The notes under the pieces: model-generated | Seen by the model: only the letters and a program-made list of their open reading frames with translations | Databases searched by the model: none | What the model was told of the DNA's origin: nothing | IMG/VR virus record: IMGVR_UViG_3300040815_003288 | Location: 1 to 21,853 of that record | Strand: one strand, 5' to 3' | DNA: 21,853 nucleotides | Source of the DNA: a virus | Made by a program: the position numbers and the translations under genes | Shown here: piece by piece, positions 3,922-16,513 of the stretch | Position numbering within the stretch: the stretch's first letter is position 1 | How the letters are laid out: the number at the start of each line of letters is the position of its first letter

Positions 3922-5358
3922 ATGGAATCACGTTTTGAATATCTTCCTCCAGAAAAAAGGAAGAAGATTGTTTTTATCTCTGATGATTTAAGAGTTCATT
4001 CAGGTATTGCTACTGTAGCAAGAGAAATAGTGACCCATACTGCCCATCATTTTAATTGGGTAAGTATTGGAGGAGCTGTTAAACATGAAGATGAAGGTAA
4101 GAGATTAGATTTATCTCAAGCTACAAATCAAATGAATGGATTAAAAGATTCATCAGTTATTATGTATCCTGTAAGTGGATATGGAAATCCTGACTTCTTA
4201 AGACAATTAATGGAATTTGAAAAACCAGATGCTATAATGATGATCACTGATCCTCGTTATTATGTTTGGTTATTTCAAATGGAAAATGAGGTTAGAAGAA
4301 AAATTCCTATTGTTTACCTTAACATTTGGGATGATTACCCAGCACCAATGTATAATAAACCTTATTATGAGGCTTGTGATTTATTGATGGGTATTTCAAA
4401 ACAAACAGTAAACATTAATAGACTTGTATTAGGAGATAAAGCTGATAAGAAACTTCTTAAGTATATTCCTCATGGTTTAAATCATCAAATATTTAAACCT
4501 TTGGATAAAAATGATCCTAAATTAATTGAGTTTAAAAAATCAATATTCAAAGGAAAAGATTATGATTTTGCTTTATTGTTTAATTCTAGAAATATTAGAC
4601 GTAAACAAATTCCTGATACTATTTTAGCTTATAGATATTTCATTGATCAGTTACCTAAGGAACAAGCTAAAAAATGTGTGTTAATTCTCCATACTGAAAG
4701 AGTATTAGATCATGGTACTGATTTGGAAGCAGTAATCGAATTACTATTAAACGAAGATCATTACAATGTTGAATTTACTGATGCTAGATTTAACCCAGAA
4801 CAAATGAACTTACTATATAATAGTACAGATGCTCAAATTTTATTAACATCAAATGAAGGTTGGGGATTAAGTATCACAGAAGCTATTTTAGCAGGTAATT
4901 TGATTATTGCTAATGTGACAGGTGGTATGCAAGATCAAATGCGTTTTGAAGATGAGAATGGAGAATGGTTTACCCCAAGCGCTGATATTCCTTCAAACCA
5001 TACTGGTAAATATAAAAAACATGGTGAATGGGCTTATCCAGTATTTCCAACTTCAAGAACATTAGTAGGTTCACCACCAACCCCTTATATTTGGGATGAT
5101 ACATGCCGTCCTGAAGATGCAACTAAACAAATTATGGCTGTATATTCTTTAACTAAAGAAGAAAGACAAGCCAAAGGTTTAAAAGGTAGAGAATGGGCAA
5201 CAAGTGAAGAAGCAGGATTTACATCTTATCATCAAGCAGAAAGAGTAATAGATGCTTTAAATGAGTTATTTGATACTTGGGAACCGAGAGAAAAATATGA
5301 ATTGATAAATGTAAATACTTATCCTGACAGAGTTATAAACCATAAATTATTATATTAA
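3922..5358 (+). CDS. GT-B glycosyltransferase (GT4-like)
   Basis: A 478-aa retaining-type GT-B transferase expected to move a sugar from a nucleotide donor to a glycan. The N-terminal Rossmann domain begins at KKIVFIS with an acceptor-side loop (SGIATVAREIV, residues 27-37). The linker PHGLNHQIF (183-191) is typical of the domain hinge. The C-terminal donor domain holds the EX7E motif E312-GWGLSIT-E320, whose second Glu binds the donor ribose. A long insertion after the motif (about 340-395, Pro/Trp-rich) precedes the C-terminal helix. No signal peptide or membrane segment is present, so it acts in the cytoplasm. It shares a base (TAATG) with the next transferase gene. The donor and acceptor cannot be told from sequence. 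Confidence 0.9.
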   Translation: MESRFEYLPPEKRKKIVFISDDLRVHSGIATVAREIVTHTAHHFNWVSIGGAVKHEDEGKRLDLSQATNQMNGLKDSSVIMYPVSGYGNPDFLRQLMEFEKPDAIMMITDPRYYVWLFQMENEVRRKIPIVYLNIWDDYPAPMYNKPYYEACDLLMGISKQTVNINRLVLGDKADKKLLKYIPHGLNHQIFKPLDKNDPKLIEFKKSIFKGKDYDFALLFNSRNIRRKQIPDTILAYRYFIDQLPKEQAKKCVLILHTERVLDHGTDLEAVIELLLNEDHYNVEFTDARFNPEQMNLLYNSTDAQILLTSNEGWGLSITEAILAGNLIIANVTGGMQDQMRFEDENGEWFTPSADIPSNHTGKYKKHGEWAYPVFPTSRTLVGSPPTPYIWDDTCRPEDATKQIMAVYSLTKEERQAKGLKGREWATSEEAGFTSYHQAERVIDALNELFDTWEPREKYELINVNTYPDRVINHKLLY

Positions 5359-6665
5359 TGAAACCGTTATTCGCAATAAGTTCTGCTTTTGATACCTATT
5401 CTGGCTATGGCGCCCGTTCAAGAGATTTAATTAAAGCCATTATTGAAACTGATAAATACGATGTAGTTTTGCTTTCACAACGTTGGGGCAATACACCATT
5501 TGGGTTCTGTAAAGACAATCCAGAATGGAGTTTTTTACTAGAAAAATTACTTCCTAATAATCAATTAACTAAACAACCTGATATTTGGGCTCAAGTAACT
5601 GTACCTAATGAATTTCAAAGAGTAGGCAAGTTTAATATTGGTTTCACAGCTGGTATTGAAACAACTGTTTGTGCTGCTGAATGGATTGAAGGTTGTAATA
5701 GAATGGACCTAAATATCGTCTCATCAGAACATTCTAAAAATGTATTCTTAAATTCAAAATTTGAAAAAAGAAACAAACAAACTAATGCTTTAGAAGGTAC
5801 AGTTGAATTAACTAAACCTATAGAAGTATTATTTGAAGGAGCAGATTTAAATATTTACAAACATCTTAGTTATGGTACTTATGAAGATAATTTATCTGAA
5901 TTAAGAAACATTAAAGAAAAATTTGCTTACTTATTTGTAGGACATTGGATTCAGGGTGACTTAAATGAGGATAGAAAAAATGTAGGCTTACTAGTTAAAG
6001 CATTTTTTGAAGTATTCAAAAACAAATCTAATAGACCAGCATTAATCTTAAAAACATCTCAAGTAGGTTCATCTTATTTAGATAGAGAAGAAGTAATTAA
6101 AAAAATTAAAAAGATAGCTAAAACTGTAAACTCTAAAAACTTACCTAATGTCTATGTACTTAATGGTGAATTAAGCGATTCAGAAATGAATGAACTTTAT
6201 AACCATCCTAAAGTAAAGGCAATGGTTAGTTTAACTAAAGGAGAAGGTTTTGGACGTCCATTACTTGAGTTTACTACAAGTAAAAAACCACTCTTAACTA
6301 CAGGATGGTCAGGTCATATGGATTTCTTAGATCCTAAATTTACTACTTTACTTAATGGTGAATTAAAAAATGTTCACCCAAGTGCTGCTAATCAATTTTT
6401 ACTTCCTGATTCACAATGGTTTAATCCTGACCATCAACAAGTTGGTTTCTACTTAAAAGATATTTTTGAAAATTATAAAAAATATACTGAGGGAGCTAAG
6501 AAACAAGCCCATAAAACAGAAACAGAATTTAGTTGGGATAAAATGAAAGAAAAAATAGATAATATTTTAACTAAAAATATTCCTGAGTTTCCTAAAGAAG
6601 TAAAATTAGAGATACCTAAATTAAATAAAATACAATTACCTAAATTACAAAAAATAGATGGATAA
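5358..6665 (+). CDS. GT-B glycosyltransferase (GT4-like) with Lys/Pro-rich tail
   Basis: A second GT-B transferase of 435 aa. The N-terminus has FDTYSGYGARSRDLI (residues 11-25), the glycine-rich acceptor-side loop. The hinge is VLFEGADLNIYK (157-168), and the EX7E motif is E296-GFGRPLL-E304. An insertion around 196-207 (WIQGDLNEDRKN) precedes the donor domain. The last 25 residues form an unusual tail with three Pro-Lys units (FPKEVK, IPKLNKI, LPKLQKI), perhaps for membrane or partner contact. It begins on the last base of the preceding stop and overlaps the zinc-ribbon gene by 8 bases. It may act in series with its neighbour on the same glycan. Confidence 0.88.
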   Translation: MKPLFAISSAFDTYSGYGARSRDLIKAIIETDKYDVVLLSQRWGNTPFGFCKDNPEWSFLLEKLLPNNQLTKQPDIWAQVTVPNEFQRVGKFNIGFTAGIETTVCAAEWIEGCNRMDLNIVSSEHSKNVFLNSKFEKRNKQTNALEGTVELTKPIEVLFEGADLNIYKHLSYGTYEDNLSELRNIKEKFAYLFVGHWIQGDLNEDRKNVGLLVKAFFEVFKNKSNRPALILKTSQVGSSYLDREEVIKKIKKIAKTVNSKNLPNVYVLNGELSDSEMNELYNHPKVKAMVSLTKGEGFGRPLLEFTTSKKPLLTTGWSGHMDFLDPKFTTLLNGELKNVHPSAANQFLLPDSQWFNPDHQQVGFYLKDIFENYKKYTEGAKKQAHKTETEFSWDKMKEKIDNILTKNIPEFPKEVKLEIPKLNKIQLPKLQKIDG

Positions 6666-7113
6666 TTTAATAACATGTGAACGTTGCGGGTCAGATGCCT
6701 GTTACGTAGATGAAGTAAACGCTGATATCAAAACATATTTTTGTTATGGATGCGGTTTCCAGACTAATTCATTAATGATTGAAGGTGAAGATTTTTTGGA
6801 ACAACAGAAAGAAAATTTACCCGAACTCTATAAAGACCTATTCCAGAAAGATGAATCAGGAAAATATTGGATGCCCTCAGCAGTTAATGTACCTAGTAAA
6901 GGAATGATATTTGCTAATGGTTCCAATACTAGAGATTGGTATTGGAGTGCTGTAAAAGCCATTCCAGTAACAGAGGAAGAAAAAGAAAAATATCCTATCC
7001 CAGGAAAAAAAGATCAATATTATGAATGGAGAATGGATATGAGTACAATTAAAAACTTCCCTGAACGTGAGTTTATGGATGCCTTGAGTTATGTAGGATT
7101 ACTCCCAGAATGA
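6658..7113 (+). CDS. zinc-ribbon protein, 151 aa
   Basis: The N-terminus carries a C4 zinc ribbon: C7-x2-C10-G and C29-x2-C32-G, spaced 18 residues apart. It is followed by an acidic helical region and a C-terminal domain rich in Trp/Tyr (DWYWSAVKA, then YYEWRMDMS). It contains no glycosyltransferase motifs. Similar zinc-ribbon proteins are, as I recall, found in T4-like marine phages without known function. It is embedded between two glycosyltransferase genes with overlaps on both sides, so it belongs to the same transcript. A role as a nucleic-acid-binding or accessory protein is possible but unproven. Confidence 0.75.
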   Translation: MDNLITCERCGSDACYVDEVNADIKTYFCYGCGFQTNSLMIEGEDFLEQQKENLPELYKDLFQKDESGKYWMPSAVNVPSKGMIFANGSNTRDWYWSAVKAIPVTEEEKEKYPIPGKKDQYYEWRMDMSTIKNFPEREFMDALSYVGLLPE

Positions 7114-7718
7114 TTAGTATAGCAATTACAGTTTGTAATGAACATGAGGAATTAGAGACTCTGTTAGATTATTTATCTGACAGAGCTCTTTCTCCTGAAT
7201 ATGAAATTGTTGTTCAAATAGATAAAGATAATCATACTGATGATGTTATTAGTGTGATTGTTGGTAGGGGAATTAAACATTGGTTTCATCCTCTAAATAA
7301 AGATTTTGCTAGTTATAAAAATGAATTAGCAAACCACTGTGAAGGAAAATATATCTTCCAAATCGATGCTGATGAATTACCCTCAGTAGAATTACTTGAT
7401 ATACTTCCTAGTATATTAGAAAGTAATCCCGAAGTGGATGTATACTTAGTTCCTCGAATTAATACTGTAAGTGGTATCACCGAGGAACATATCCTTAAGT
7501 GGGGTTGGAGATATGAAAATGATAGAGTAAATTTTCCTGATTATCAATGGAGAATTTATCGCAATGATAAATCCATTAAATGGAAAAATAAAGTTCATGA
7601 AGTATTAGAAGGATATAAACAATATGCTGCTTTGCCTCCTGAAGATGAGTTTTGTTTAATTCATCCTAAAACTATTAAACGACAAGAAAAACAAAACGAG
7701 TTTTATAATACAATATGA
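7110..7718 (+). CDS. GT2 family glycosyltransferase
   Basis: A 202-aa GT-A fold inverting transferase. The N-terminal strand ISIAITVCNE (2-11) is the GT2 nucleotide-binding start. Next comes the EIVVQIDKDNHTDD donor loop and the metal-binding DxD at D86-A-D88 (FQIDADE). The later segment with NFPDYQWRIYRNDKSIKWKNKVHE resembles SunS/WaaE-type beta-glycosyltransferases. It is compact, lacking any membrane segment. It overlaps both neighbours through ATGA junctions. Donor specificity is not predictable. Confidence 0.9.
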   Translation: MISIAITVCNEHEELETLLDYLSDRALSPEYEIVVQIDKDNHTDDVISVIVGRGIKHWFHPLNKDFASYKNELANHCEGKYIFQIDADELPSVELLDILPSILESNPEVDVYLVPRINTVSGITEEHILKWGWRYENDRVNFPDYQWRIYRNDKSIKWKNKVHEVLEGYKQYAALPPEDEFCLIHPKTIKRQEKQNEFYNTI

Positions 7719-8527
7719 AAATAAAAACAGCTCACTTTGATGCTAAGGTTTTTGAGGATAAATTACAACATTTATCTCATTTAGATTTTTCTTTATTTAT
7801 AGATACTGCTCCTCAATCTCAAGAGGATTTATCTTCAATTAATATTATTTCTTTTCAAGAACCAAATGAATATTTTGGTCTTCATGATTGGACAATCCAA
7901 AACAAAGATCTATTTAATATCATTCTAACCCAGAGTGATAAAGTATTAAATAATTGTGATAATGCTATTTTTCAACCATTTGGACATACATGGTTAAAAC
8001 CAGATCAATATAGTAAGGAACATAGTAAAGAATTTAAATTAGCTCATTTACAAGGTAAATTACTTAAAACATATGGTCACTCTTTAAGACACCAAGTAAC
8101 AGCTAGAAAAAATGAATTAACTATTCCTACTAAGTTTTATGAAACCTATGGAGATAGAAACAATATTGATGATGCTCGTTTAGGTAAAGAATTTATATTT
8201 GGTGATTCACAATTTGGAGTAGTAATTGAAAATACATCAAGTAGAGGTTACTTTACTGAAAAAATACTAGACTGTTTTTTATTAAAGACTATTCCTTTAT
8301 ATTGGGGTTGTTCGAATATAGGAGATTATTTTGATATAGACGGTATAATAACGTTAAATAACGTAGATGATTTGATTTATATATCAAATAATTTAACTAA
8401 TGATTATTATGAATCTAAAAAAGAAATAATTAATAAAAATTGGAACTTAGCTTTAAATTACGTACATTACGAACAAAACATAGTTAATACAATAACAAAT
8501 ATTTTTAAACACAATAAGCTTATATGA
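7715..8527 (+). CDS. GT10 alpha-1,3-fucosyltransferase-like protein
   Basis: The C-terminal half carries the GT10 signature: FGVVIENTSSRGYFTEKILDCF, with E172-N173 and the Y179-F-T-E-K183 segment, then KTIPLYWGCSNIGDYF with P194 and G198. In characterised GT10 enzymes this region binds GDP-fucose and transfers fucose to the 3-position of GlcNAc or Glc. The N-terminal half (residues 1-155) is divergent and smaller than in Helicobacter FucT; total length is 270 aa. No heptad repeats or membrane anchor follow. GDP-fucose synthesis genes are absent here, so the donor would come from the host. Family membership is well supported; the sugar actually transferred could be another 6-deoxyhexose. Confidence 0.85.
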   Translation: MKIKTAHFDAKVFEDKLQHLSHLDFSLFIDTAPQSQEDLSSINIISFQEPNEYFGLHDWTIQNKDLFNIILTQSDKVLNNCDNAIFQPFGHTWLKPDQYSKEHSKEFKLAHLQGKLLKTYGHSLRHQVTARKNELTIPTKFYETYGDRNNIDDARLGKEFIFGDSQFGVVIENTSSRGYFTEKILDCFLLKTIPLYWGCSNIGDYFDIDGIITLNNVDDLIYISNNLTNDYYESKKEIINKNWNLALNYVHYEQNIVNTITNIFKHNKLI

Positions 8528-9666
8528 AAAAAATATGGTATGCTCCTTACAAGTTTGAATCTTATGGAGAAGAAGAAATTAAAGCAGTAGAGGAATCACT
8601 TCGCTCAGGATGGCTAGGAGGTCAAGGACCTAAATCAATTGAGTTTGAAGAAAAAATAGCTAAACATTTTGGTAAAAAATATGGTGTATTTGTTAATTCA
8701 GGTTCATCAGCATGTTTGCTTGCTTTAGCTAGTTTACAATTACCTAAAGGCACTAAAGTTATTACACCAGCATGTACATTCTCAACTACATTAGCTCCTA
8801 TGGTTCAATTAGGTCTTGATCCTGTTTTTGTTGATGTTGGATTAAATGATTATGTAGCTGATATTAATCAAGTAATTGAAGCAGTCACTCCAGAAGTAAA
8901 AGTTATTATGTTGCCTAATTTGATTGGTAATAAACCAAATTGGAAAAAGCTTAAAAGTGACTTGAAATATATGGGTAGAAAAGATATTATCCTAATTGAA
9001 GACTCAGCGGACACAGTAACCCATACTCCAGAATCAGATATCGCCACTACTAGTTTTTATGCCTCTCATGTTATCACAGCAGGTGGCTCAGGTGGAATGG
9101 TAATGTTTAACGATAAAAAATTAGTTAATGTTTGTCTTCAATTTAGAGATTGGGGTAGATTAGGAGGTGATTCTGAAATTATGGATGAACGTTTCAATCA
9201 TAAAGTAGATGGTATTCCATATGATCATAAATTTTTATATAGTGTTCTAGGATATAATTTTAAATCATCTGAAATGAATGCTGCTTTTGGTTTAGTTCAA
9301 TTAGACCGTTTTAAGAACTTTGAACAAATTAGAAGAGCAAATATTGAACGTTATATTGAAAATTTAAAAGATGTAGAAGAAATATTATTGCCTGATGATT
9401 CAATTAAACCAAATTGGTTAGCCATTCCATTACAAACTAAAAAACGTTTTGAGTTACTTACTTTCCTAGAAAATAATAATATTCAAACAAGAGTAACATT
9501 TGCTGGAAATGTAACTCGCCATCCAGCTTATAGAGAATACTTACAAGAATTTACCAATTCAGATATTATTATGGAAAATGGATTTTTGTTAGGTGCTCAT
9601 CATGGAATGACTATTGATGATGTAGATTACGTTTGTGATAAAATTAAAGAATTTTTTAGTAAATGA
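8524..9666 (+). CDS. DegT/StrS-fold sugar-nucleotide 3-dehydratase (ColD/E1-like, His in place of Lys)
   Basis: A PLP enzyme of the DegT/DnrJ/EryC1/StrS fold, 380 aa. Visible elements: G30-W-LGGQGP start, the phosphate-binding VNSGSSA (58-64), the PLP-ring Asp in LIEDSAD (D160), and the motif SFYASHVITAGGSGG. Aminotransferases of this family have Lys at the residue before VITAGGSGG; here it is H182. The same Lys-to-His change defines GDP-4-keto-6-deoxymannose 3-dehydratase (ColD) and CDP-4-keto-6-deoxyglucose 3-dehydrase (E1/RfbH). The enzyme should therefore remove the 3-hydroxyl rather than transaminate. It is followed immediately by a ThDP enzyme and an SDR, which fits synthesis of a branched 3,6-dideoxysugar. 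Whether it is ColD-like (using glutamate) or E1-like (needing an E3 reductase, not seen) is open. Confidence 0.88.
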   Translation: MKKIWYAPYKFESYGEEEIKAVEESLRSGWLGGQGPKSIEFEEKIAKHFGKKYGVFVNSGSSACLLALASLQLPKGTKVITPACTFSTTLAPMVQLGLDPVFVDVGLNDYVADINQVIEAVTPEVKVIMLPNLIGNKPNWKKLKSDLKYMGRKDIILIEDSADTVTHTPESDIATTSFYASHVITAGGSGGMVMFNDKKLVNVCLQFRDWGRLGGDSEIMDERFNHKVDGIPYDHKFLYSVLGYNFKSSEMNAAFGLVQLDRFKNFEQIRRANIERYIENLKDVEEILLPDDSIKPNWLAIPLQTKKRFELLTFLENNNIQTRVTFAGNVTRHPAYREYLQEFTNSDIIMENGFLLGAHHGMTIDDVDYVCDKIKEFFSK

Positions 9667-11450
9667 TAAAAGTAAGTGATGTAGTTGCTGAATTTTTAAA
9701 ATATAAAAAAATTGATACTGTTTTTGGTATCATAGGTTCAGCTAATTCTCATATTTTTGATTCAATCCAAAATTTAGGATATACAAAAATCATATGTACA
9801 CATCATGAACAAGCAGCTATTATGGCCATGGCTGCTTATTATAGAGCCTCAGGTAAACCATCAGCTGCTTTAGTAACAGCAGGAGCGGGAGCGAGTAATG
9901 CCATTACTGGGGTAATTAGTAACTGGGCAGATTCTATTCCAGGTATAATCATTTCAGGTCAAGAACCCTCAAGATATTTAAGTCAACATAAAGACTTAAG
10001 AATGTATGGAACTCAGGGTTTTAGTTCATATAAAATGGTTGAGGATGTCACTAAATGTAGTGATGTTTTGTTAGATGGAGACCGCATATATTCATTTTTA
10101 GACAAACATTATAATCAAAGCACATCAGGCAGACCAGGCCCTACTTGGTTAGAAATTCCTTTAGACATTCAGGCCCAAAAAGTAGAAGTTAAAGAGTTTA
10201 ATAACTATTCATCAAAATCAATAAGAATAACAGATGCTTATAGTTATGCTAATGAAATTATTCGCTTAATTAATGATTCTAAACGTCCTGTTATTTTAGG
10301 AGGTATGGGAATAAAATTAAGTGGAGCTAAAGATAAATTTAAACAATTAGTAAATCAAACAAATATCCCAACCATGCTAAGCTGGTCAGGGGCGGATTTA
10401 TTACTTACTAGCCACAAATCAAATTTTGGACGATTTGGATTATATGGTCAACGAGCCGCTAATTTTATTATACAAAATTCTGATTTAGTAATTGTATTAG
10501 GTAGTAGAATGGCTTTACCTCAAGTTGGATATGATTTTAGTCAATTTGCTAGAAATGCTCTAATTGTTCAAGTCGATATCGATGAATCAGAATTAAACAA
10601 ATATGATAGAGTTCTTAAATACTATCATGATGTGGACATGGTTTTAGAAAAAATGTTAGAAAAAATATCTAATATTAAGCCAAATATAGACCAATGGATA
10701 ACTAAATGTAATTATTATAAAACTAAATATCCTATTATTGATGATAATTATAAAAATGATAAGTATGTTAATTCATATTCATTTGTAAATAAACTAACCC
10801 AAAAGTTAAACGATAATGAAATTATTGTTACTGATATGGGTACTGGTTTATTAAGTGGACATCAAGCATCTGATTTAAAAGAAGATCAGATGTTATTCAC
10901 TAGTCAGGGGCTAGGAGAGATGGGTGTAGGATTACCTTATGCTATAGGAGCATCATTCGCTGCTCCAGATAAACCTATTACTTGTTTAAATTGCGATGGG
11001 GGTATTATGATGAACTTACAGGAATTGCAAACTATTGTTCAACATAATTTACCTGTTAAAATATTCATCTTTAATAATGATGGGTATTTAATGATTAAAC
11101 ATACTCAAAAATTATTTTTCCAAGGTAGATATGCTTCTGTAGATAAAAACACAGGTATAGTACTCCCAGAATTTGAAAGATTAGCTTATGGTTTTAATAT
11201 TCCTTATTATAAAATAGATAAATTAGAAGATTTAGATAATATGGAGTTTAAAAATGATGGGCCCTCTATTATTGAGGTATTTATGGATCCTGAACAAGAT
11301 TTTATTCCTAAAGTTAAAGGAGCTGTTACTAAAGATGATTTAATTATTCCTTCCCCATTAGAAGAAATGTCTCCATTATTGCCTTTTGAAACAATTGAAA
11401 AAGAAATGATCATAGGTGTTAGTGAAAAATCAAAACAAATCAAAAGATGA
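9663..11450 (+). CDS. ThDP-dependent acetolactate-synthase-like enzyme, candidate YerE-type sugar acetyl transferase
   Basis: A 595-aa enzyme with three thiamine-diphosphate-family domains in order. The Pyr domain (1-170) has catalytic Glu E49 in THHEQAA. The central domain (about 195-330) follows, and the PP domain (about 370-545) has the cofactor motif C444-D-G-G, 24 residues, N471-N472. The canonical first Gly of GDG is Cys here. It resembles acetolactate synthase, but no regulatory subunit or other amino-acid genes are present. Its place between a 3-dehydratase and an SDR matches YerE, which adds a two-carbon acetyl unit from pyruvate to a 3,6-dideoxy-4-keto sugar nucleotide in yersiniose A synthesis. 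The ThDP family is certain; the sugar substrate is inferred from gene order. Confidence 0.85.
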   Translation: MIKVSDVVAEFLKYKKIDTVFGIIGSANSHIFDSIQNLGYTKIICTHHEQAAIMAMAAYYRASGKPSAALVTAGAGASNAITGVISNWADSIPGIIISGQEPSRYLSQHKDLRMYGTQGFSSYKMVEDVTKCSDVLLDGDRIYSFLDKHYNQSTSGRPGPTWLEIPLDIQAQKVEVKEFNNYSSKSIRITDAYSYANEIIRLINDSKRPVILGGMGIKLSGAKDKFKQLVNQTNIPTMLSWSGADLLLTSHKSNFGRFGLYGQRAANFIIQNSDLVIVLGSRMALPQVGYDFSQFARNALIVQVDIDESELNKYDRVLKYYHDVDMVLEKMLEKISNIKPNIDQWITKCNYYKTKYPIIDDNYKNDKYVNSYSFVNKLTQKLNDNEIIVTDMGTGLLSGHQASDLKEDQMLFTSQGLGEMGVGLPYAIGASFAAPDKPITCLNCDGGIMMNLQELQTIVQHNLPVKIFIFNNDGYLMIKHTQKLFFQGRYASVDKNTGIVLPEFERLAYGFNIPYYKIDKLEDLDNMEFKNDGPSIIEVFMDPEQDFIPKVKGAVTKDDLIIPSPLEEMSPLLPFETIEKEMIIGVSEKSKQIKR

Positions 11451-12223
11451 GTATTCTCATAACAGGGTCTAATGGTTATATAGGAAAATCTTTATATAAT
11501 TCTTTAAGACTTCATCATAAAGTACTTACAATATCTAGGCAAGAAGTAGATTTGACAAACAGTGAGTCTGTTAGAAATTACTTTAAAGATAAATATTTTG
11601 ATACAATTATCCATTGTGCAGTGTCTGGAGGAAATAGAACCAAACATGATACATCAGAAGTGATAGACAATAATTTAAAAATGTATTATAATTTATTAGA
11701 TAATAAAAAACATTTTAATAAATTTATACACTTTGGTTCAGGGGCTGAGATACATTTTAAAGATACTCCTTATGGTTTAAGCAAACATGTAATAAGAGAA
11801 TCTATTTTAGGTCAAGATAATTTTTATAACTTAAGAATATTTGCTGTTTTTGATGAAAATGAATTAGAAACTAGATTTATAAAAACAAGTATAAAAAAGT
11901 ATTTAGAAAATCAATCTATTGAAATTTTTAAAGACAAACGTATGGATTTTCTTTATATGCCTGATTTGATTACTTTAGTAAACTATTATTTAAATAATAA
12001 TGATTTACCTAAGGAAATAGATTGTAAATATAATTATACACCCACCTTATTAGATATAGCTGAAATTATAAATGGTTTAGATAATTATAGAGTACCAATT
12101 AAATTTAATTCAACAATTAATGATAAAGCATATATTGGTAAATTTCATAATTTAGGTTTAAATTTTATTGGTTTAGAACAGGGAATAATAAACACATATA
12201 ATAAAATAAAGAATGAATATTAA
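11447..12223 (+). CDS. NAD(P)-dependent SDR sugar-nucleotide reductase (RmlD/YerF-like)
   Basis: A short extended-type SDR of 258 aa. It has the nucleotide-binding GSNGYIG (7-13), VDLTNSE then FDTIIHCA (51-58), GSGAEI, and the catalytic Y109-GLS-K113. The order and short length are RmlD-like (a reductase of 4-keto sugars) rather than 4,6-dehydratase-like, since those enzymes are usually longer than 300 aa. Following a YerE-like enzyme, it could reduce the acetyl-branch ketone, as the SDR YerF does in yersiniose synthesis. It overlaps both neighbours by a few bases. SDR family is secure; the specific reduction is inferred. Confidence 0.82.
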   Translation: MSILITGSNGYIGKSLYNSLRLHHKVLTISRQEVDLTNSESVRNYFKDKYFDTIIHCAVSGGNRTKHDTSEVIDNNLKMYYNLLDNKKHFNKFIHFGSGAEIHFKDTPYGLSKHVIRESILGQDNFYNLRIFAVFDENELETRFIKTSIKKYLENQSIEIFKDKRMDFLYMPDLITLVNYYLNNNDLPKEIDCKYNYTPTLLDIAEIINGLDNYRVPIKFNSTINDKAYIGKFHNLGLNFIGLEQGIINTYNKIKNEY

Positions 12224-13127
12224 AATAGCTAGCCATATAATGCCTTGGGACATTGACTATGCTCTACTATTGTTTACCCAATTAAAAAAATCCAAATATT
12301 ACCTATCAGAGGATATAAACATTACTGTTGATGTTAATTTAAATCTATCTGACTATATTATAGATTGGAATAAATCAAAATTACCTAAGTCTTATTTTAT
12401 TTCTAAATTTAATACATTATTAGATTTATTAGAAGATTATAATGTTGATAAATTAATTTATGAAGGAAATAATCTTTATGGTCATTTAGATCAACAGCGT
12501 TCTATTATATCTCCTGAAACTGATTATTACATAAGTATATGCCCCGATATCTATTTCAGCGAACATACTTTATACTACTTAATAGAATCAGCTCAACTAA
12601 TAAAAAATAAATATTTTGTTTTAAGTCCTCAACATAGAAAATTAACAGACGAAAGTTGGGATCCTACTACAGATGAAAACTACTTAAACATTCCTTATGA
12701 AAAATGTAATGACTTAAGTATTTTTGATATAAGACATAATAACAAACAAAAAGATAACATAGCAGTTCAGCCAGTTCAAATACCTAAATTTGCGGGGTGG
12801 TGTGATTTGTATAGTAAATCTTTTTATGAAGAATTAGTTCCTATCCATGATGAATGGAATGGTTATGGACCTTGGGATTGGTATAGTATGATTCTTATTA
12901 ATTATGTTAAAAAATTTAATATTGACTTCCAGCAATATACTTTAAAAGGACCTACTGTAGGAGACTATTGGATTGGTAAATGGAAAGATAAAGAAGGATT
13001 ATCTGGGTATTATAAAGATTTAATAGTGAAAAAAGACATACCAAACCAAAGATCAACTTTTGAAGCAAATTTGGAAAACTACGTGAGGAAAGGTATATTA
13101 ATGTTACAAGAAAAAGGTATCATATGA
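12213..13127 (+). CDS. probable GT-A-like glycosyltransferase
   Basis: A 304-aa protein with an N-terminal IKIASHIMPWDIDYALLLFTQL stretch typical of GT2-like proteins that begin with a strand and a helix. The mid-protein TDYYISICPDIYFSEHTL segment has D112 after a beta strand, at the place of the DxD metal site. A later EWNGYGPWDWYSMILINYVKKF segment resembles the acceptor-side aromatic and acidic region of GT-A enzymes. No membrane segment is visible. It overlaps the SDR by 11 bases and the next gene by ATGA. It is assigned from pattern and from its location among transferases; the exact family is not recognised. Confidence 0.65.
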   Translation: MNIKIASHIMPWDIDYALLLFTQLKKSKYYLSEDINITVDVNLNLSDYIIDWNKSKLPKSYFISKFNTLLDLLEDYNVDKLIYEGNNLYGHLDQQRSIISPETDYYISICPDIYFSEHTLYYLIESAQLIKNKYFVLSPQHRKLTDESWDPTTDENYLNIPYEKCNDLSIFDIRHNNKQKDNIAVQPVQIPKFAGWCDLYSKSFYEELVPIHDEWNGYGPWDWYSMILINYVKKFNIDFQQYTLKGPTVGDYWIGKWKDKEGLSGYYKDLIVKKDIPNQRSTFEANLENYVRKGILMLQEKGII

Positions 13128-14485
13128 TTAAACTAATTATATTTGATTTAGACGGTGTATTAGTTGAGGCTAAAAAAATACATTATGACGCCTTGAATAA
13201 AGCATTAGGTAAAACATACTCCATCAATTGGGATGAACATTTATCAGTTTATGATGGTTTGAAAACAAATCAAAAACTAGAAATGTTAACTGAACGTAAA
13301 GGTTTACCTGTTGGATTACATTCTGAAATTTGGGATAAAAAACAAAAATATACTCTACAGGCACTTAATGAGCTTAACCCAAATCAAACACTACAATCAG
13401 TAATGTCTGCGTTAGTAGAAGATGGTTATAAGTTGGCTGTGTGTTCTAATTCAATTCGTAAAACAGTATTAACTGTACTTTCTAAATTAGGGATTATTGA
13501 GTTTATGGATTTAATTATCTCAAATGAAGATGTTAAAAATAGTAAACCTCATCCTGAAATGTATTGGAAAGCTATTTCAATGATGAGTTGTCTCCCAGAA
13601 GAAACACTTATTGTTGAGGATTCACCTTATGGTTTATTAGCAGCATCTAGAAGTAAATCACATATTTTAAGAGTAAAAAATCCTAAAGAAGTAACTTATA
13701 GTAATATATTTAAAAAATTAACTGAAATAGAAATGGGTGAAACAATTAAATCTCCTGCTTGGAGAGATAAAAATTTGAATGTATTGATTCCAATGGCGGG
13801 TGCTGGTTCTAGATTTGAACAGGCAGGTTATACATTCCCTAAACCGCTTATTGATGTTCGAAACAAACCTATGATTCAGGTTGTAGTAGAAAATCTTAAT
13901 ATTAAAGCTAATTATATTTATATTGTTCAAAAGAAACATAGAGAAAAATATAATTTAGATACTTTACTTAATTTAATCACTCCAGATTGTAAAATTGTAG
14001 AAGTAGATGGATTAACTGAAGGCGCTGCTTGTACAGCATTATTAGCTAAGGAATTTATTAACAATGATCAACCTTTATTCTTTGCCAACTCAGACCAGTT
14101 TGTAGAATGGGACTCAAATGAATTCCTTTATAAAATGAATGAGACAGAGGCAGATGGTGGTATTGTTACTTTTAAAGCAACTCATCCTAAATGGTCGTTT
14201 GCTAAAGTAGATGAAAAAGGATTAGTAACTGAGGTAGCCGAAAAAAATCCAATTTCAGATATTGCAACTGTAGGATATTATTATTGGAAACATGGTTCTG
14301 ATTTTGTAAATTACGCAGAACAAATGATTGAAAAAAATATTCGAGTAAATAATGAATTTTATGTTTGTCCTGTATTTAATCAAGCGATTGAAGATGGAAA
14401 ACAAATTCGTACTTTTGATATTAAACAAATGTGGGGGTTAGGTACTCCTGAAGATTTAAAATATTATTTAGAAAATTACAAATGA
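13124..14485 (+). CDS. HAD hydrolase-sugar nucleotidyltransferase fusion
   Basis: A two-domain protein of 453 aa. Residues 1-205 form a beta-phosphoglucomutase/GPH-type HAD domain: nucleophile D8 and D10 in FDLDGV, motif II S108-N109, motif III K141 in KPHPE, and motif IV E165-D166 in VEDSPYG, all intact. Residues 216-453 form a sugar-phosphate nucleotidyltransferase: LIPMAGAGSRF (221-231) and K240 in FPKPLID, then FFANSDQFVEW as the Asp motif. The HAD half could be a phosphatase or mutase that handles the sugar phosphate, and the second half would activate a sugar-1-phosphate with NTP. Fusing consecutive steps is common in bacterial surface-glycan loci. The sugar is not predictable. It probably supplies a donor for the cassette transferases. 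Confidence 0.88.
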   Translation: MIKLIIFDLDGVLVEAKKIHYDALNKALGKTYSINWDEHLSVYDGLKTNQKLEMLTERKGLPVGLHSEIWDKKQKYTLQALNELNPNQTLQSVMSALVEDGYKLAVCSNSIRKTVLTVLSKLGIIEFMDLIISNEDVKNSKPHPEMYWKAISMMSCLPEETLIVEDSPYGLLAASRSKSHILRVKNPKEVTYSNIFKKLTEIEMGETIKSPAWRDKNLNVLIPMAGAGSRFEQAGYTFPKPLIDVRNKPMIQVVVENLNIKANYIYIVQKKHREKYNLDTLLNLITPDCKIVEVDGLTEGAACTALLAKEFINNDQPLFFANSDQFVEWDSNEFLYKMNETEADGGIVTFKATHPKWSFAKVDEKGLVTEVAEKNPISDIATVGYYYWKHGSDFVNYAEQMIEKNIRVNNEFYVCPVFNQAIEDGKQIRTFDIKQMWGLGTPEDLKYYLENYK

Positions 14486-14907
14486 TATTAATTAGCCATA
14501 GAGGAAATATTAACGGAAGAATTCCTGAACAAGAAAATCACCCTGACTATATAATTGAAGCATTAAGTCAAGGTTATGATGTTGAAGTAGATGTTTGGTA
14601 TGTTAATGGTGAATTTTATTTAGGCCATGATGAACCTCAATATAAAACAAATAAAATATTTTTGAGTCATAATTGTTTATGGGTACATTGTAAAAATGTT
14701 GAGGCACTTGATAAGTTTAAGTTTGATAACATTAATTACTTTTGGCATGAGAATGATACTGTCACTCTAACCTCAAAAAGAAATATTTGGGCCTACCCAG
14801 GGAAACAACCTATTAAAGGTAGTGTAGCAGTGTTACCTGAACTTTATAATGATAATGTAGAAGGATGTTATGGTGTATGCTCTGACTATATAGAAAATTA
14901 TAAATAA
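14482..14907 (+). CDS. GDPD/PI-PLC-like phosphodiesterase domain protein, 141 aa
   Basis: Carries the glycerophosphodiester phosphodiesterase signature: H6-R7-G near the start, E35 and D37 in GYDVEVDVWY, H49-D50 in LGHD, and K71 in WVHCKN. These correspond to the catalytic His pair and the metal-binding Glu/Asp of GDPD. At 141 aa it is short for a full TIM barrel (about 240 aa). I recall a group of proteins of this size with the same NYFWHENDxxTLTS continuation encoded in bacterial polysaccharide loci, so it may be complete for its group. It could hydrolyse or transfer a phosphodiester-linked glycan decoration. It overlaps both neighbours. Family call is good; role is open. Confidence 0.75.
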   Translation: MILISHRGNINGRIPEQENHPDYIIEALSQGYDVEVDVWYVNGEFYLGHDEPQYKTNKIFLSHNCLWVHCKNVEALDKFKFDNINYFWHENDTVTLTSKRNIWAYPGKQPIKGSVAVLPELYNDNVEGCYGVCSDYIENYK

Positions 14908-15608
14908 TGCAAGGAGTAATAATACAAGGACCAACTAACTATGCTTCCCAAATAATAGAATCATATAAGGGAATTAGTAATGTTGTTTGGTCAACTTGGA
15001 TTGATGAACCTAAAGAAAATATATCCTTAATTAAGGAAAATGGAATAGAAGTAATACAAATAGATAAACCTACAGTAGCAGGGCATATAAATGTTAATTT
15101 TCAAACATTAAGTACCTATGCTGGGATTGATTATTTAAAAAATAAAGGAGTAAATGAGGCTTTAAAAGTAAGAGGTGATATGAAAATAAATAATCCTAAA
15201 TTACTTTTAGAAGTATTAAAAGGTAAAAAAATATCTTTTTTATCCATTTGTAAACCTAACATTAGACCTTTATATTATGAACTAGTTTATAGACATAATA
15301 GCTTTGATTTCCCAGGTGACTTATTATTATATGGTGAATTAAATGAGTTAGAAAAATGTTTTAATTTCCAAGTTGAAGATAATAATCCTATACCTCCTGA
15401 AGCATTAATAGCTTATAGTTATTTAACCCAATCCAATATTGATTTTAATCTTAATTATAACCACTTTATTAATTCAGGAATTAGTTTTTTTGCTCAGGAA
15501 TGCTTAGATAATAAAATAGAAATTGATTGGTTAAAAAGAAGTACAGAAGAACCACTTTGGAAAAACATTTTAAACCATTCAGCAGATAAAACTTTATATA
15601 ACTATTAA
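14907..15608 (+). CDS. WavE-like lipopolysaccharide glycosyltransferase
   Basis: Resembles the WavE lipopolysaccharide-synthesis family. It starts VIIQGPTNYA, has VVWSTWIDE (S29-T-W31), then N64-FQTLST, and the core ALKVRGDM with K87, R89 and D91, which matches the YVLKxRxD signature of the family. WavE (Vibrio cholerae LPS core) proteins are presumed GT-A-like transferases. Length is 233 aa, smaller than WavE (about 300), with no membrane segment. It starts at the last base of the upstream stop codon and ends two bases before the next gene. The family call is from motif recall. Confidence 0.7.
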   Translation: MQGVIIQGPTNYASQIIESYKGISNVVWSTWIDEPKENISLIKENGIEVIQIDKPTVAGHINVNFQTLSTYAGIDYLKNKGVNEALKVRGDMKINNPKLLLEVLKGKKISFLSICKPNIRPLYYELVYRHNSFDFPGDLLLYGELNELEKCFNFQVEDNNPIPPEALIAYSYLTQSNIDFNLNYNHFINSGISFFAQECLDNKIEIDWLKRSTEEPLWKNILNHSADKTLYNY

Positions 15609-15610
15609 AT

Positions 15611-16513
15611 ATGATTTCTTTAATTATACCAACAACAACTAAGAATAGAAATTATACTAATAATATCTTACAAAACATTAGAGAAATTTATCCTAATATT
15701 GAAGTTATTATTGAGGAAAATGATGATGTTACTCTAGGTGTAAATTATAATAATGCTGTTTCTAAAGCCACAGGTGATAAAATTATTTTACTCCATAATG
15801 ATATGTTTATTAAACCTGGTTTTATTGAAACTATGGATAAACATATTACCAAGGGAAGAATAACAACATATACAAGAATAGAACCACCTATTTATACAGA
15901 CACTTACCCAGGTAAAGTAATTTTAGATTGTGGGAGTGATTTAGAAACATTTAATAAAGATAAATTCAATAATTTTAATATTGAAGAAAAATTAGAGGAT
16001 GGAGGTTCACAATTGTTTTTTGGATGTATGAAAGAAGATTATATAGGAATTGATGGTTATACATTTCAAATGTTTTGTGAAGATGATGATTTGCATTTAA
16101 GATATAAATTAGCAGGGTTTGAACATAAAGTAAGTTCTGCTCATGTTTATCATTTTGTAAGTAAAACTTCTAGAGCAGGAAGTTATAAAGAAGTTGAACA
16201 ACAATCAAATTTTAACTTTGTTAAAAAATGGGGTTTTAGAATGTCTCATTACAATGTTGTTTATAATAAAAGGTATGTTATTAAAAACGATAATAGACAG
16301 TTAAATGAGACTTTAAAATGGTGGTTTAATGATGGTGATGATATACTTGTTGAAATTGATGGTCAAACATTTACAGATCAAGATTATATGTATATCCAAC
16401 AGTTAAATGATATTGTAAAAGATAATAATGAATTAGGTACCTTTGAATTAGGTAATTTAAAAATAACAGTTAATAGTTTAGAAGAACAACAGCATAATTT
16501 AATTAAAATATGA
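15611..16513 (+). CDS. GT2 family glycosyltransferase
   Basis: A 300-aa GT-A transferase. It begins ISLIIPTTTKNR (2-13) with a donor-site ENDDVTLGVNYNNAVSKATGD stretch. The metal site is HND (H62-N63-D64) before MFIKPGF, where family members usually have a D-x-D-D. A second acidic cluster, E157-DDD-L, precedes LRYKLAGF and matches the catalytic EDxDL region of GT2. The last 100 residues after the VSKTSRAGSYKE segment are an extension rich in Asp/Asn, not assigned. It is the last transferase of the operon and overlaps the small ORF at 16510 by ATGA. Confidence 0.88.
   Translation: MISLIIPTTTKNRNYTNNILQNIREIYPNIEVIIEENDDVTLGVNYNNAVSKATGDKIILLHNDMFIKPGFIETMDKHITKGRITTYTRIEPPIYTDTYPGKVILDCGSDLETFNKDKFNNFNIEEKLEDGGSQLFFGCMKEDYIGIDGYTFQMFCEDDDLHLRYKLAGFEHKVSSAHVYHFVSKTSRAGSYKEVEQQSNFNFVKKWGFRMSHYNVVYNKRYVIKNDNRQLNETLKWWFNDGDDILVEIDGQTFTDQDYMYIQQLNDIVKDNNELGTFELGNLKITVNSLEEQQHNLIKI

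Follow-up and report, generated by a model that had tools for sequence, protein, structure and literature searches.

The window analysed here is the whole of a 21,853-base IMG/VR virus record (IMGVR_UViG_3300040815_003288), and within its island of glycosyltransferase genes lie three consecutive genes that, in our judgement, probably make up a phage-borne, swappable pathway for a C-4-branched 3,6-dideoxy sugar. They encode a DegT-fold protein, a thiamin diphosphate (ThDP)-dependent enzyme and a short-chain dehydrogenase/reductase (SDR), and an original prediction made from the sequence of the window alone had read them as a yersiniose-type module; all three open reading frames are intact. Families, active-site residues, phylogeny and co-inheritance with cassette exchange were read from the sequences, and it is from these that we infer substrates, products, nucleotide, donor, target and role. 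The features that carry the argument are the following (NDP, nucleoside diphosphate).

8524..9666, + strand: predicted DegT-fold NDP-4-keto-6-deoxysugar 3-dehydratase, [2Fe-2S]-free (380 amino acids; Pfam PF01041, 6e-72)
9067..9069, + strand: codon of His182, which stands where aminotransferases have Lys (alignment with E1 and ColD)
9663..11450, + strand: predicted ThDP-dependent YerE-like (JanthE-type) carboligase with a CDG motif (595 amino acids; best match JanthE, 8rph)
9807..9809, + strand: codon of Glu49, the ThDP-activating Glu (HHEQ)
10992..11000, + strand: codons of C444-D445-G446, the CDG variant of the ThDP/Mg motif
11447..12223, + strand: short SDR, probable NDP-ketosugar reductase (Y109xxxK113; 258 amino acids; Pfam Epimerase/RmlD, 4e-23)

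The DegT protein belongs to the DegT/DnrJ/EryC1/StrS family, and its residue 182, in the motif SFYASH, is a histidine that shares an alignment column with the catalytic histidine of both E1 and ColD. The Lys-to-His signature of sugar 3-dehydratases on which the original prediction had relied is therefore confirmed, E1 and ColD being also the nearest relatives by sequence and fold. Indeed, E1 (3bcx) was the best match in the PDB search (7e-59), followed by ColD (3e-41), and a Foldseek search with the AlphaFold model (mean predicted local distance difference test score, pLDDT, 86; residues 214-243 poorly defined) placed E1 at the top and ColD at rank 7 with 28% identity. Histidine occupies the same position in 111/113 phage homologues, including all those examined from the window's clade, and in 52/62 bacterial DegT-like proteins from the studied neighbourhoods; D160 and S177 are invariant. 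A lysine at the pyridoxal phosphate (PLP) site elsewhere in the structural model was to have spoken against a dehydratase, and neither the alignment nor the model, poor as it is at residues 214-243, gave any sign of one.

The [2Fe-2S] cluster of E1, a CDP-4-keto-6-deoxyglucose 3-dehydratase, has ligands that we take to be C193, C251, C253 and C261. E1 and SpnQ require this cluster, held on four cysteines, whereas ColD, a GDP-4-keto-6-deoxymannose 3-dehydratase, works without it and has its pyridoxamine phosphate (PMP) regenerated from glutamate (PMC8987622). The four-cysteine motif of E1/RfbH is absent from the window's DegT protein; in the alignment of the main phage type with E1 each E1 cysteine in the aligned region is replaced or deleted, and the cysteines are retained in the bacterial RfbH proteins of clusters that carry a CDG-type ThDP gene. 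In the DegT tree the window's clade forms a separate cysteine-free branch that adjoins RfbH and lies outside ColD (SH-aLRT branch support 89), and the best NCBIfam match is RfbH (PRK15407) at 275 bits, under the cut-off of 423 bits. Since the window's protein lacks the cluster cysteines, it should act alone with PMP and glutamate, as ColD does, and need no reductase partner. We consider it most likely that the enzyme is ColD-like in mechanism, with which it shares the histidine and the missing ligands, although nearest to E1/RfbH in sequence; its assignment to C3 deoxygenation draws on knowledge of the family.

The ThDP protein contains the N, M and C domains of the TPP_enzyme families (Pfam, down to 2e-32), and its best PDB match by a wide interval is JanthE of Janthinobacterium sp. 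HH01 (8rph, 1e-168; further structures 8rpi and 8rpj), ahead of 5ahk (2e-76). It is 45% identical to JanthE over the whole length, compared with 26-32% to acetolactate synthases and 5ahk (approximately 32% to the latter), and it keeps the equivalents of JanthE M406, Y297 and K567 (numbering offset by one from that published), of which M406 is presumably a functional site. The claim of a ThDP enzyme with E49 and an intact cofactor motif was borne out for E49 but not entirely for the motif, which is CDG, as in JanthE, and not the canonical GDG found in 5ahk, the structure that we take to be the PpYerE of a recent review (PMC12247030). In a tree of 84 sequences the protein falls in a viral clade within the CDG/JanthE group, whose members are mostly linked to DegT-His genes as in the window, and away from IlvB/IlvI; the placement of JanthE is firm and that of 5ahk, on a long branch, is unsure. 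Grouping with genuine acetolactate synthases, the outcome named beforehand as contrary to a YerE-like enzyme, did not occur. An arginine in the motif RFDDR binds the acceptor in acetolactate synthases, and where those compared have this residue both the window's protein and JanthE have proline. JanthE itself belongs to the YerE-like enzymes, carries this uncommon CDG motif and couples keto acids to ketones (PMC12247030, PMC12188165). The window's protein is most likely, as judged from these sequence comparisons, a YerE-like carboligase that adds an acyl unit derived from a keto acid to a ketone. It also matches PHROG 11199, which has no assigned function, at 321 bits.

Within the CDG group the window-type proteins make up a single long-stemmed clade and have in common several substitutions at sites that are otherwise nearly constant, namely A to G395 (A in 58/58 others), Y to V422 and L to F485, together with H to Y363 and A to G510. 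The first three lie near ThDP-binding segments in the ThDP-binding half of the protein, set the window apart from JanthE and would fit a changed donor pocket, perhaps for a common host keto acid. A further ThDP homologue, at L088:18026-19816, has ADG in place of CDG or GDG.

The third protein was modelled with a pLDDT of 93.8, and its best Foldseek matches, a GDP-keto-heptose reductase and GDP-L-fucose synthase, bear out the proposal of an RmlD/YerF-like SDR with the fold of NDP-ketosugar reductases. It has the extended-SDR fold, Y109 and K113 are invariant in 12 homologues, and on this basis it is a probable NDP-ketosugar reductase. That YerF reduces the branch, as the original prediction assumed, is not established, the ketoreduction concerned in yersiniose synthesis having been described as uncharacterized in a 2016 paper (PMC4753412). 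Among named phages the short SDR found only distant epimerases (25-27% identity), and the same search with its homologue from locus L036 gave no match.

Our current working hypothesis is that the DegT protein, through H182 and PMP, would strip the C3 hydroxyl from an NDP-4-keto-6-deoxyhexose, with PMP regenerated from glutamate; that the CDG-type ThDP enzyme would then decarboxylate an alpha-keto acid and attach the resulting acyl group at the C4 ketone, so that a tertiary alcohol bearing an acyl branch is formed; and that the short SDR would reduce a ketone, for which the branch ketone is the simplest candidate. The neighbouring GT10-like, GT4 and GT2 glycosyltransferases would transfer the sugar onto a glycan of the phage or of the host, and in the window's phage group the 4-keto-6-deoxy substrate and the keto acid may be supplied by the host. 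The few-base overlaps that chain the module to its neighbours (7715-8527, 8524-9666, 9663-11450, 11447-12223 and 12213-13127) fit co-translated genes. The order of dehydratase, carboligase and reductase had been taken as the order of the pathway, and this logic gains support both from bacterial rfbG/rfbH clusters and from the mutual exclusion of reductase and ligase genes in phages.

The bacterial evidence comes from 80 fetched loci with CDG-type relatives, of which the 60 with at least 15 kb were counted. A DegT-His gene is present in 46/60, a 4-hydroxy-2-oxovalerate-aldolase-like gene in 45/60 and an acetaldehyde-dehydrogenase-like gene in 38/60, all three occurring together in 33/60. Two clusters that were checked carry an RfbG 4,6-dehydratase (507 and 475 bits; cut-off 278) and an RfbH dehydratase (745 and 706 bits; cut-off 423). 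This linkage to rfbG/rfbH and to DegT-His genes indicates that the CDG-ThDP family truly belongs with 3,6-dideoxy-4-keto sugar nucleotides; by analogy with ErwE, the usual donor of the family is probably a 4-hydroxy-2-oxo acid rather than pyruvate. One Flavobacteriaceae contig (L111:9992-11782, from a metagenome-assembled genome) has a CDG-ThDP gene that falls inside the viral clade and stands beside rfb-like genes, a possible instance of genes passing between phage and host.

For the DegT protein, 80 IMG/VR loci with close relatives (185 confirmed stretches) were retained, and for the ThDP protein 30 loci. Given so many relatives, and the same order of the three genes in the nearest of them, the module is not a chance arrangement. 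What follows the dehydratase differs between loci. In 32 loci it is an RmlD-like reductase of about 230 amino acids (the 'red' type); in 10, including the window, it is a CDG-ThDP gene without donor genes (type A); and in 8 it is a CDG-ThDP gene with an aldehyde dehydrogenase (310 bits, cut-off 282) and a 4-hydroxy-2-oxovalerate aldolase (326 bits, cut-off 286), frequently joined by a 4,6-dehydratase-like SDR (type B). The remaining types have a GDG-ThDP gene with PanB (280 bits, cut-off 208; type C, 4 loci), other GDG-type ThDP enzymes mostly accompanied by an HpcH-like aldolase and/or an enzyme resembling dehydroquinate (DHQ) synthase (type D, 9 loci), or a split transketolase of 201+156 amino acids (Transketolase_N and Transket_pyr; type E, 15 loci).

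Associations were counted in the 74 loci with enough downstream sequence. Reductase alone was found in 26, ligase alone in 41, both in 1 and neither in 6 (Fisher 3e-13, a value that overstates independence, the loci being related and partly near-copies). This mutual exclusion supports the action of both kinds of enzyme on the same product, the C4 ketone. The short SDR is present in 34/42 ligase loci and 2/32 others, and no reductase-type locus contains the GT10-like gene or the family of the protein encoded at 12213-13127. On the dehydratase tree the following module must have changed at least 18 times, against a mean of 41.6 after shuffling, which makes it more clustered than expected by chance; many forks are weak, and the P values and the change count are indications only. 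Our reading of this pattern is that modules are exchanged while the first step stays the same.

A wider reading, to which we give a little less than even weight, is that large aquatic phages possess a combinatorial branched-sugar system, in which a constant 3-dehydratase is combined with C4 reduction or with one of several exchangeable C4-branching modules so that several sugars are switched. The CDG-ThDP modules would use either a host keto acid or 4-hydroxy-2-oxo acids; GDG-ThDP enzymes would work either on keto acids hydroxymethylated by PanB or together with the HpcH-like and DHQ-synthase-like enzymes; and the split transketolase would transfer a hydroxyacetyl unit. If this were true, some of the sugars would probably be ones not yet known, displayed on virions or on the surface of infected cells, and selection would be likely to come from receptors or host defence.

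Several individual loci deserve description. The split transketolase, which lacks a C-terminal domain, lies between dehydratase and short SDR at L033:11143-12215 and occurs also in L035, L036, L037, L040, L044 and L102; split transketolases have been proposed to branch antibiotic sugars (PMC12247030). At L039:11147-13865, as in L041 and L043, a GDG-ThDP gene is followed directly by PanB, the ketopantoate hydroxymethyltransferase, which scores above its NCBIfam cut-off, and the pair suggests a hydroxymethylated keto acid as donor. At L049:11816-15965 (also L085 and L086) an HpcH-like aldolase, an SDR, a DHQ-synthase-like enzyme (best model TIGR04425, below cut-off) and a GDG-ThDP enzyme are encoded between dehydratase and short SDR. 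The phage contigs L010 (167 kb) and L012 (66 kb) carry an RfbH-type dehydratase of 437-438 amino acids (459 bits, above cut-off, in L012) with 4,6-dehydratase-like SDRs, CDG-ThDP, aldehyde dehydrogenase, aldolase and short SDR, which is nearly the whole pathway in one phage.

A number of observations weigh against the proposed three-gene pathway. A search for a phage 4,6-dehydratase, suggested as a check, yielded nothing beyond a 15-bit match in the window and three related contigs (128, 72 and 47 kb), these records being incomplete, no gene for keto-acid supply stands beside the window-type ThDP gene, and an aldolase was looked for in the same three records without success; part of the pathway would thus have to come from the host or lie in missing sequence. 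The DegT protein and the SDR both score below every NCBIfam cut-off, the four loci with GDG-ThDP and PanB, and some others, have no short SDR within the genes examined, and the interdependence of the loci noted above lessens the weight of the association counts. The physiological substrate of JanthE, moreover, is unknown (PMC12188165).

The sugar may be carried on GDP and not on CDP. In favour of GDP are the GT10-like neighbour (8e-12 to H. pylori fucosyltransferase), the GDP-fucose-synthase-like fold of the SDR and the GDP-mannose-dehydratase-like genes of some relatives; against it are the CDP cluster in bacterial relatives and the dTDP-type dehydratases of other phages.

As regards the branch, a tentative alternative, on balance somewhat doubtful, is that a longer branch arises from a 4-hydroxy-2-oxo acid, or from some other keto acid of the host, and yields a sugar resembling erwiniose or caryophyllose. 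The closest phage and bacterial CDG relatives carry the aldolase and acetaldehyde dehydrogenase, ErwE has a preference for 4-hydroxy-2-oxo acids, and JanthE takes 4-hydroxy-2-oxovalerate when benzaldehyde is the partner (PMC12247030, PMC12188165). However, both supply genes are absent from the window, which differs in this from JanthE, and from its nearest group, and the residues of the window's enzyme differ near the ThDP-binding segments.

We regard it as unlikely that the product is yersiniose itself or a sugar very near it, built on a CDP-3,6-dideoxy sugar with pyruvate supplying a branch of two carbons. The proposed reaction, in which a 3,6-dideoxy sugar nucleotide receives a keto acid at its C4 ketone, is of the same type, and YpYerE uses pyruvate on CDP-3,6-dideoxy-4-keto-glucose (PMC12247030); without aldolase and aldehyde dehydrogenase in the window's group, pyruvate or a similar metabolite of the host would be a simple donor, and G395, V422 and F485 are consistent with an altered donor pocket. 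Yet the CDG clade overall adjoins 4-hydroxy-2-oxovalerate aldolase genes, pointing to longer, hydroxylated branches, so that the 'yersiniose-type' two-carbon branch of the original prediction found no support in bacterial relatives; the GT10 neighbour and the fold of the SDR hint at GDP and not CDP; and neither a CDP-glucose 4,6-dehydratase nor the E1/E3 pair of the yersiniose pathway is encoded in the window, the contigs being possibly incomplete.

It is highly improbable that the DegT protein acts as an aminotransferase or as some other PLP enzyme, or is inactive, since against the unreached NCBIfam equivalog cut-offs and a model that is poor near the E1 cysteine region stand the nearly constant histidine, the proximity of E1 and ColD and the invariant D160 and S177. 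An ordinary acetolactate synthase or other decarboxylase unrelated to the sugar genes is hardly credible for the ThDP protein, even though its best NCBIfam models are acetolactate synthases (337 bits, under every cut-off), given its identities, its tight linkage to dehydratase and short SDR and the absence of an adjoining small subunit; a part in amino-acid auxiliary metabolism we reject on the tree, the CDG motif and the missing arginine.

Returning to the branched-sugar pathway, its location among glycosyltransferases implies transfer of the sugar to a glycan, and the target could be virion proteins or a host surface polysaccharide. A sugar for glucosylating 5-hydroxymethylcytosine DNA was also considered and gained no support. 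Thymidylate synthases and hydroxymethylases are told apart by the Asn of GLPFN/GLGFN, and the PF00303 matches of the relatives, which keep it, look like ordinary thymidylate synthases; the relative immuto has 7-deazaguanine genes instead.

YerE-like sugar branching has been described from bacterial surface polysaccharides, and viruses have been named as an unexplored source of it (PMC12247030). Within the limits of our literature and collection searches we found no paper on phage-encoded branched sugars, and the annotated phages of a 50,697-record collection held no close CDG-ThDP relative, the best, at about 30%, being to acetolactate synthases. Each enzyme is of a known kind; what is new is the phage setting, the presence of a CDG carboligase beside a dehydratase free of iron-sulfur, and the interchange of different carbon-carbon ligase modules. 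The window thus offers phage examples of YerE-like branching in a minimal, three-enzyme form whose dehydratase would not need a reductase partner. Natural sets that swap carboligase and presumed donor-supply enzymes behind one dehydratase make donor specificity testable in vitro, and such cassettes are potential biocatalysts for forming tertiary alcohols. They also suggest that phages may diversify exotic sugars as bacteria diversify O-antigens.

The window has about 30% G+C and almost every gene on the + strand, and its glycosyltransferase island (3922-16513) sits 3' of a PD-(D/E)XK-type exonuclease gene. A promoter scan of the window gave fewer matches than shuffled sequence. Besides the module, the island contains the following.

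3922..7718, + strand: upstream part, with two GT4-type glycosyltransferases, a Zn-ribbon-like protein and one GT2
7715..8527, + strand: GT10-like (fucosyltransferase-family) glycosyltransferase (family profile against H. pylori alpha1,3-fucosyltransferase, 8e-12)
12213..13127, + strand: conserved protein, fold without known match (association with ligase-type loci)
15611..16513, + strand: GT2-like glycosyltransferase at the downstream end (Pfam PF00535, 5e-8)

The homologue of the GT10-like protein in L017 scores above the Pfam GT10 cut-off, and the protein encoded at 12213-13127 found no relative in Pfam or PDB searches. The gene order of 3922-7718 is the same in most relatives and in Flavobacterium phage immuto (Immutovirus, vB_FspM_immuto), which among named phages has the best match to the first glycosyltransferase (54% identical over the full length) and is the nearest cultured relative. 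Immuto shares the island after the PD-(D/E)XK nuclease gene, and the genes for its second glycosyltransferase, small protein and GT2 succeed one another as in the window, but in the stretch read it has a Lys-type aminotransferase (SLQAIKH) and no CDG-ThDP gene. The window's phage is probably of the Flavobacterium type, and this likeness to immuto makes a Bacteroidota host likely.

The small cysteine-containing, Zn-ribbon-like protein of 6658-7113 accompanies the glycosyltransferase pair in most relatives and has no family match above cut-off. A trio at 13124-15608, present in only about 9 of the examined loci, comprises a fusion of HAD phosphatase and nucleotidyltransferase, a 141-amino-acid gene product that on visual inspection looks like part of a glycerophosphodiesterase, and a 233-amino-acid protein without assignment.

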